Below are positions 34,782 through 37,353 of a stretch of 64,000 nt of DNA, in pieces. This DNA is from Scatophagus argus (taxonomy: Eukaryota; Chordata; Actinopteri; Scatophagidae). Numbering within the stretch: the stretch's first letter is position 1; every line of letters begins with the position of its first letter. The notes below the pieces were generated by a model. It saw only the letters and a list, made by a program, of their open reading frames with translations, was not told the origin of the DNA and made no database searches. The DNA lies in NCBI RefSeq assembly GCF_020382885.2, contig NC_058508.1:9833917-9897916 (forward strand), given 5' to 3'. Position numbers and translations under genes: made by a program.

Positions 34782-37353
34782 CTATAGTATTATGCAACGT
34801 CTTTGAGTGTTCTTCTTGCTCTTCTTGTTGCTGCGGTTGGTCTCCTTATATTTCCTAATTTCACGTACTAGTGAATAAAAAGCTTCCTCCACACCCTGCA
34901 AGGCAGTAGCAGAAAAATGTGTGTTGCACACAAAATCAAGATTAAAGTTTGACTATTGATAAGCAAACATCTTATTTTCTCAAACAAGGCTCATGCATTC
35001 ATGGGTGCAAACTCAATACAGGTGTTACCAACTTTCCCATGTACCTGTCTGGTTTTGGCAGAGGTCTCAACAAACGGTACTCCATAACTTCGTGCCAGCT
35101 CCTGTGCCTGCCGTGACTCCACCGTGCGGGCACTCAGGTCGCTCTTATTCCCCACCAGCACCATGGGAACACTGTCACTGTCTTTCACCCTATTGATCTG
35201 CTCCCTGAGGAAGAAACGCATGCGACAACAAAGTGCCCGTTGGCCTAACTGTTGCACTTAAAGACATCAAAGGAACTTAGCCTTTTCTGCAGTTCTACTC
35301 TATGTGCTTGGGTCATTACTGATCCCACAGAATTTGTAACTTTCAGTGTGCCTGTAGATATGATAATTACATAAGCACTTACTCCTAATGAGGAAGCAGC
35401 CTTTGTAATGTCTCCTCTCTATACTAAACACATATGGATTATTGACTGTACCGCTGGAATCATGAAGCATTTTGTACCTGTAGAGGTGAACGTCCTCGAA
35501 AGACTTGGTGTTGTTGATGGCAAACACACAGAGGAAACCCTCTCCCGTCCTCATATACTGATCCCTCATAGCACTGTACTCCTCCTGACCTGCAGTGTCC
35601 AGGATGTCCAAGAGACAGGTTTCTCCATCAATCACCACCTGTTTTCTGTACGAGTCCTGTAACACAGCATTGTCATGACCATGCAAGCCATACCAAGAGT
35701 GCAAGCAGCATGTCTGCCAGTGGATTGCATCATACTAACTTTCCATGACAGTCACACTGCTCCCTCATGTACCAACAAGACCTCATGCAATGGAATGCTT
35801 TGTAATGAACCTGCAGAAACCTGATTTTTTTTTTTTTTTTACACCAACCATAAAATGATACCATTAAATGATTTAGAGCTAGAAATAAAAGAAAGACTTA
35901 CAGAGATTTACAACCAATCTGTGGCGATTTTTAGAAAATGTCATGACAAACAAGATATCACACAGAAGCACTGATTTCTGTGGTAAGTATTTGAATCTAA
36001 AGACAGGAGAGGCATTAACAAGTTTAAGGGGGGCAGCCGTGGCCTAGAGGTTGGAGAGGCGGCTTGTGATTGGATGGTCACCGGTTCGATTCCCCTACCG
36101 GATGGGCAGGAAAAATTTGGGTGTGGTGGAGTGATTAATGTGAGAAAAACTCCACTCCATTAGTCGACTGATGTACCCTTGAGCAAGGCACTTAACCCCC
36201 AATATGCTCCCCGGGCGCTTGATGCTGCCCACTGCTCCTGTGTGTGTTTCACTGCACGTAATTTGCTGGATGTTGCATGTGTGTTCAGCTAAGGATGGGT
36301 CAAATGTAGAAGACAAATTCAGTATGTGTATGTAAAAATATATATACTGTCAATAAAGCCGATTCTTCTTCTTCCTCTTAAATCAACTTTTATAACATGG
36401 CATTTTCACTGTTATTTGCTATGGTCTGAATTGTAAGGTTTGACTCCACTGCATTCATTTGACAGCTACGGTTACCATTTACTTCAAAGATTAAGATTTT
36501 AGTTACAAAACAGGTTCAGTGTATAAAATAAGAGGCATTATTATTGAATAAACTGCCAAGCGGTTCAAATAAAGATCGATGTCAGCCAGCTACAACATTA
36601 AAATGCATTATGGATGAGTTAAAACATTATTATAATATAACATATATTAATATGATTGATGGGCCATTCAAAACAAAATGTCAAACATTTTCACGTTTGA
36701 TATTTAGGTATTGTTGCCAATATTTATTGTTGAAGTTAGGATTTTAATACAGGACTTTGACCTTTAATGGAGAATTTTCACTTTTACTTAAATGATTTAT
36801 TTTGATATTTTCGTGTCATTCATGAGTGCCCACCCCATGTTTTCCGATAACACGGTGAAATGCCAATGCAGTGGTGAGGGAGAGAGCTAGAAAACTTCTT
36901 ACATATTACAGTAAATTGCAAACAAAGTCTCCTGCCACAAGATCACATATTGTAAAGGAAAGGCAAGAATTTGAGCTCTTTGTACACCACTTATTCAATT
37001 TATTCAACAGATGACTTATAGCATAAGAGTGAGTAACACATCCTGTCCACTAACAGGGCAGATATGACTTGCAACGCTTCTTTTAAAACATTCAATCTTA
37101 AAACCCGGATTTTCTCAATGACATAGTTGAGAATAACACACTGATTAACACCAGAAACTGAGCAGATTATGTTTTGTCAGCTACACTTTACACATTAAAC
37201 ATCAAACTTCACTCAGGATGTCTAATGATTAGTTTCTCTCACCTCAATGGTCGGATCATATTCATCTACGAAGTGATTCTGGATGAGCTGGATGGTGAGA
37301 GCACTCTTCCCGACACCTCCTGCCCCGACCACCACAAGCTTGTACTCGGTCAT
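34782..37353 (-). CDS. Canonical Ras GTPase (H/K/N-Ras class) with polybasic CIIL tail
   Basis: Four coding exons on the minus strand: 37243-37353, 35478-35656, 35045-35204 and 34782-34895, giving 187 residues. Exon breaks after codon 37 and within codons 97 and beyond match the vertebrate Ras layout. The G domain is canonical: P-loop GAGGVGKS with Gly12 and Gly13, effector loop [18 protein letters not shown] with Gln61, NKSD and ETSAK. It binds GTP/GDP and should signal to Raf and PI3K type effectors at membranes. Odd points: residue 118 is Ser, where H-, K- and N-Ras have Cys, and the tail is [17 protein letters not shown] followed by CIIL, with no upstream palmitoylation cysteine. A final Leu predicts geranylgeranylation. 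It is not Rras or Rap, since residues 1-94 are essentially identical to HRAS. A teleost hras/kras duplicate or a fourth Ras ohnologue are the alternatives; I leave the symbol open. An acceptor two bases before the ATG implies an upstream non-coding exon. Confidence 0.93.
36029..36365 (+). mobile_element. tRNA-derived SINE in Ras intron 1
   Basis: The head has a perfect pol III A box, TGGCCTAGAGG (36040-36050), and a perfect B box, GGTTCGATTCC (36083-36093), 32 bases apart. The body has the familiar fish-SINE text CCTTGAGCAAGGCACTTAAC and CTCCCCGGGCGC. The 3' end is AT-rich with CAATAAAGCC, then CTT repeats. It lies in antisense to the Ras gene. Family name not assigned. Confidence 0.88.

Follow-up and report, generated by a model that had tools for sequence, protein, structure and literature searches.

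Most work on Ras assumes three genes. A fourth vertebrate RAS was described by Garcia-Espana and Philips in 2023 under the name KRASBL (KRAS4B-like), in a paper found by a full-text literature search for that name (PMC9882654). In the sections of that paper used here, KRASBL is reported from sharks to reptiles and missing in mammals and birds, its CaaX box is given as of the geranylgeranyl type, an NB motif of the form K/R-E/D-K/R is said to be present in all KRASBL proteins, and vertebrate G-domain identity is stated as 93-100%. The authors trace the gene to kras, with the second duplication round as its origin, and pair it with KRAS, and they report NRAS in all jawed vertebrates and state that the other isoforms are strictly conserved (PMC9882654). 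With regard to the older history of the family, a 2015 study that applied relaxed criteria, in the part drawn on here, counted ERAS, HRAS, KRAS and NRAS as the four ohnologues of one family (PMC4504502). According to a further paper, Nras and Ampd1 are 6 kb apart in mouse, and a haplotype AMPD1-NRAS-CSDE1 is cited there (PMC5075929).

Here we describe a Ras gene of the fish Scatophagus argus, contained in a window (the whole stretch of DNA that was analysed, 64,000 nucleotides in length) that corresponds to C16:9833917-9897916 in a source assembly of 570.7 Mb and 48 contigs. A sequence-only reading of the window had proposed a possible fourth canonical Ras gene that fish retained and mammals lost, and such a gene matches KRASBL as presented in the published account (PMC9882654). 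The window gene itself is not new: KRASBL has been in print since 2023. The present locus contributes the gene's setting, next to pold1 and a vesicular glutamate transporter and on a contig that also carries an R-Ras-type gene; pold1 is absent from the main text of the KRASBL paper (PMC9882654).

Gene structure and neighbourhood

The window Ras gene lies on the minus strand and encodes 187 aa, with 0 internal stops in the translation of the spliced exons (Table 1). Under the exon model its coding sequence runs from 37353 to 34782, which is exactly the span that the sequence-only reading had delimited. Its three introns are all GT-AG and stand in phases 0/2/0, the number and phases also given for KRASBL in the consulted text (PMC9882654), and the product matched Pfam Ras with E = 8e-60. 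An AG sits 2 bases 5' of the ATG, which suggests that an untranslated first exon may lie further upstream. Within the intron that separates exons 1 and 2, the segment at approximately 36028-36330 carries a GGTTCGATTCC box and by eye resembles a tRNA-derived SINE; ARAGORN detected no tRNA on 35900-36500, and Rfam gave no match on the whole 64-kb window.

Table 1 Features of the window, in window coordinates.
Feature	Position	Strand	Remarks
hspbp1-like	1691..2370	+	Fes1 domain; HspBP1 match in PDB
tmem86-like	4775..5269	-	YhhN family
aspdh-like	8157..9192	+	Aspartate dehydrogenase C-terminal domain on 8911-9192
pold1	22991..28031	+	DNA polymerase delta match 26582-26890; positions mark the outermost ORFs examined, not the whole gene
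Ras gene, coding exon 4 incl. stop	34782..34895	-	114 nt; G-domain end, polybasic tail, CIIL
Ras gene, coding exon 3	35045..35204	-	160 nt; NKSD and SAK motifs; ends phase 0
Ras gene, coding exon 2	35478..35656	-	179 nt; end of switch I, switch II; ends phase 2
Ras gene, coding exon 1	37243..37353	-	111 nt; residues 1-37; ends phase 0
Vesicular glutamate transporter, probably slc17a7	41881..47123	-	Match on 46698-47123; paralogue number judged from neighbours
SLC6 family transporter, probably slc6a16-like	58199..63360	-	Paralogue assignment presumptive

From left to right, the order in the window is hspbp1-like, tmem86-like, aspdh-like, pold1, the window Ras gene, the vesicular glutamate transporter and the SLC6 transporter. 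It had been proposed from the sequence that the gene adjoins pold1 and lies near slc17a7, and domain matches bear this out, with pold1 and the vesicular-glutamate-transporter gene flanking it. An NCBIfam match on 8157-8459 of the aspdh-like gene fell far below its cut-off, while 41881-42255 was assigned to the vesicular glutamate transporter by ORF reading, Pfam giving no match there; at a threshold of 0.001, Pfam gave no match for five of the ten window ORFs in one search. Human HSPBP1, TMEM86B, ASPDH, POLD1, SLC17A7, SLC6A16 and RRAS are all located at 19q13.3-13.4, and on these human positions the neighbours of the window Ras gene form a 19q13-type block.

Class of the encoded protein

The predicted protein retains both canonical RAS switch signatures (one of them, read from the translation, being EYDPTIEDSYRK), and G12, G13, Q61 and the NKSD and SAK motifs are likewise intact. 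On its sequence, the window gene is a canonical Ras and not RRAS. Residues 1-92 match both human HRAS and human KRAS without a difference. An essentially HRAS-type sequence had earlier been claimed for the first 94 residues; the identity holds at 1-92, and it applies equally to KRAS. Because human HRAS and human KRAS show no difference over residues 1-94, the first occurring at 95, this likeness is not diagnostic for HRAS versus KRAS.

Over residues 1-166, the window protein differs from human HRAS at 14 positions and from this fish's hras at 15, compared with 18 for human KRAS4B, 18 for this fish's kras4B and 19 for human NRAS, and its residues 122 and 126-128 are common to human HRAS. This fish's kras4B has 0 G-domain differences to human KRAS4B and its hras has four to human HRAS, and therefore the window gene is the fast-evolving one. 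At residue 118, encoded in exon 3, the window protein carries Ser (NKSD), while all eight of the other sequences in the comparison, which include two forms of a single gene, have Cys. Cys118 is the redox-sensitive site of other Ras proteins, so that the window protein would be without this site.

The C-terminal tail (residues 165-187) contains nine K/R, one E and 0 Cys before the CaaX box, which is CIIL, and a Thr stands at the position of KRAS4B Ser181. The membrane tail is thus KRAS4B-like as read from the translation, and the top PDB match of the whole protein is human KRAS isoform 2B (E = 1.7e-104). The likeness to KRAS4B takes in residues 1-92, the polybasic tail, the Thr and the best PDB score, whereas the 18 G-domain differences and the CaaX boxes (CVIM in human KRAS4B and CTLM in this fish's kras, versus the geranylgeranyl-type CIIL) set the two apart, as does a model of the window gene that has no second last exon of the 4A type. 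HRAS, by comparison, shares residues 1-92 and has slightly fewer G-domain differences, but its tail has two Cys ahead of a CaaX box ending in Ser.

The same features correspond in large part to the published description of KRASBL. According to the consulted parts of that account, KRASBL proteins have canonical switch signatures, a polybasic domain (four or more basic residues ahead of the CaaX box) with no palmitoylation Cys, a phospho-acceptor that precedes the CaaX box by three residues (Thr in the window protein) and Leu or Phe as the final CaaX residue, which CIIL fits, the lipid type being a prediction from sequence (PMC9882654). In contrast, the NB motif of the window protein is K-E-T and departs from the K/R-E/D-K/R rule, which we treat as descriptive and not as name-defining, and the G-domain is identical to human HRAS at 152/166 positions (91.6%), below the 93-100% stated there (PMC9882654). 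Likened to KRASBL by this description, the window gene is very probably the KRASBL gene of this fish and so belongs to the fourth canonical Ras type of vertebrates, and we infer its orthology to the KRASBL of other species.

Other Ras-family genes in the genome

The genome was scanned with a 33-base pattern that covers every codon choice for an 11-residue Ras stretch. Zero-mismatch places numbered three: C7:15.27 Mb, C7:16.72 Mb and the window gene. The two C7 loci read as kras and hras, the kras gene having both alternative last exons, 4A and 4B. R-Ras-type exons, with the switch forms SDYDPTIEDSY and AGQEEFGAMREQYM, were identified at C16:515-525 kb, 9.35 Mb from the window gene. By eye, further hits at C11:17.5, C18:10.3 and C24:0.9 Mb are Ral-type and one at C11:18.7 Mb reads as M-Ras-type. 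The window gene is separate from the hras, kras and R-Ras-type genes of this genome.

These results bear on whether the window gene could be a misread R-Ras gene (rras), or else a retrocopy or pseudogene, which we consider extremely improbable. In human, RRAS shares the 19q13.33 region with POLD1 and SLC17A7, and the R-Ras-type gene of this fish is on contig C16 like the window gene, but the letters of the R-Ras switch forms differ from the canonical signatures of the window gene, and the R-Ras-type exons are separate. The three introns and the open frame rule out a retrocopy or pseudogene.

Divergence and phylogenetic placement

Over codons 1-92, NG86 dS was 1.49 between the window gene and kras and 1.29 between the window gene and hras. 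Synonymous sites are near or past saturation, and the window gene is therefore no recent copy of kras or hras. The kras and hras genes, 1.45 Mb apart on C7, have a dS of 0.62 to each other, lower than that of either to the window gene.

A protein tree was built from eight rows, three of them from this genome, with the kras exon-4A form left out. The kras coding sequences used ended one base early, within the stop codon, and all residues were unaffected. The full-length tree put the window gene next to HRAS+NRAS (support 83/89) and apart from KRAS, while a G-domain-only tree gave it no resolved placement. Constrained placements were compared by AU tests, for which p values are per test and uncorrected. 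The tests spoke against grouping with HRAS or NRAS: holding the window gene with its own hras cost 14.3 log units and was rejected (p-AU 0.005), and p was 0.024 with the HRAS clade and 0.029 with human NRAS. Neither placement with own kras (p-AU 0.067) nor with the KRAS clade (p 0.198) was rejected, nor was a sister position to the other five vertebrate rows taken together (p 0.203). The published pairing of KRASBL with KRAS is thus neither confirmed nor rejected, and eight rows cannot settle the branching.

The window gene might alternatively be an hras duplicate, teleost-specific or older, whose palmitoylated tail was replaced by a polybasic one. The lower count of G-domain differences to HRAS (14-15, versus 18 to KRAS), the HRAS-like residues 122 and 126-128 and the free tree would all be in keeping with such an origin, but the uncorrected AU tests against own hras and the HRAS clade, the different tail and the saturated dS make it very unlikely. 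Slightly less improbable, though still unlikely, is a fast-evolving kras duplicate, either teleost-specific (third-round) or lineage-specific, that has shed exon 4A and come to lie next to pold1; the KRAS4B-like tail agrees with this, as do the two KRAS placements that were not rejected. Against a kras duplicate stand the 18 G-domain differences to an own kras4B that has none to its human counterpart, the saturated synonymous sites and the 19q13-type neighbours, as well as the publication of a gene of the same kind from sharks to reptiles in the account consulted (PMC9882654).

For the preferred reading, in which the window gene is KRASBL, the neighbourhood also touches on its age. An origin in the two rounds of vertebrate genome duplication had been suggested from the sequence, and the 19q13-type neighbours, the R-Ras-type gene on the same contig, the saturated dS and the rejected hras placement are consistent with it; as placement with own kras was not rejected, this part of the proposal is unproven. 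The window gene would then have come from the second vertebrate genome duplication, and a Ras gene in a 19q13-type block would be a rival to ERAS for the place of the fourth ohnologue.

Apparent loss of NRAS

Besides kras, hras and the window gene, the 33-base pattern found no nras at zero mismatch in the whole genome. AMP-deaminase matches form five clusters in the genome, one of them at C8:20.123-20.130 Mb. An N-terminal exon at C8:20.1314-20.1316 Mb continues this cluster and, by its resemblance, is taken to be that of ampd1; a family search on this exon gave no match. Four of the genome's nine cold-shock-domain matches lie at C8:20.142-20.148 Mb, on the same strand as ampd1, and are taken as csde1. 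The stretch that separates ampd1 from the putative csde1 (C8:20130200-20142999), the site of NRAS in mammals, spans 12.8 kb with 0 N, and tblastn with nine Ras proteins recovered no credible Ras exon there, the best match (E 0.08) falling in the end of the putative csde1. As a control, human NRAS in the same tblastn recovered all four hras exons at the hras locus, with E from 9e-35 to 1e-13. Judged by the exact pattern and the interval search in this assembly, nras has likely been lost from this genome. No prior account of teleost nras loss or of csde1-nras-ampd1 synteny was present among the literature matches listed.

Between ampd1 and the putative csde1 there is also an opposite-strand gene with RA-domain matches just below the cut-off, which appears RASSF-like by eye.

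Proposed function and implications

The window gene is presumably expressed, and its product would act as a GDP/GTP switch with an effector half (residues 1-92) unchanged from HRAS and KRAS. Given this unchanged half, loading by the usual Ras exchange factors and switch-off by the usual GAPs would be expected, and RAF, PI3K and RalGDS-type effectors could bind. With Leu as its last residue, the CaaX box is predicted to receive geranylgeranyl (by GGTase-I) and not farnesyl, so that the protein may be held at the membrane by a C20 lipid and by the electrostatics of its lysine/arginine-rich tail, with no palmitoylation cycle. Phosphorylation of the Thr would weaken this anchorage, as for KRAS4B Ser181, and the protein may be resistant to farnesyltransferase inhibitors. 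The likely outcome would be a KRAS4B-like Ras with firmer membrane attachment.

The apparent loss of NRAS is more unexpected than the fourth Ras gene itself, and the presence of KRASBL in a genome that seems to lack NRAS runs against the strict conservation of the other isoforms stated in the consulted text (PMC9882654). On balance, we lean slightly towards the view that this lineage kept KRASBL while NRAS was lost from the csde1-ampd1 slot, such that KRASBL was not the dispensable isoform and a palmitoylated one was shed, and that pold1-linked KRASBL, not mammalian ERAS, is the fourth second-round ohnologue of HRAS, KRAS and NRAS. Many vertebrates carry a fourth Ras that has the whole effector half in common with HRAS and KRAS and a different predicted lipid anchor, and such a gene would allow the role of prenyl type in setting Ras output to be tested in nature.
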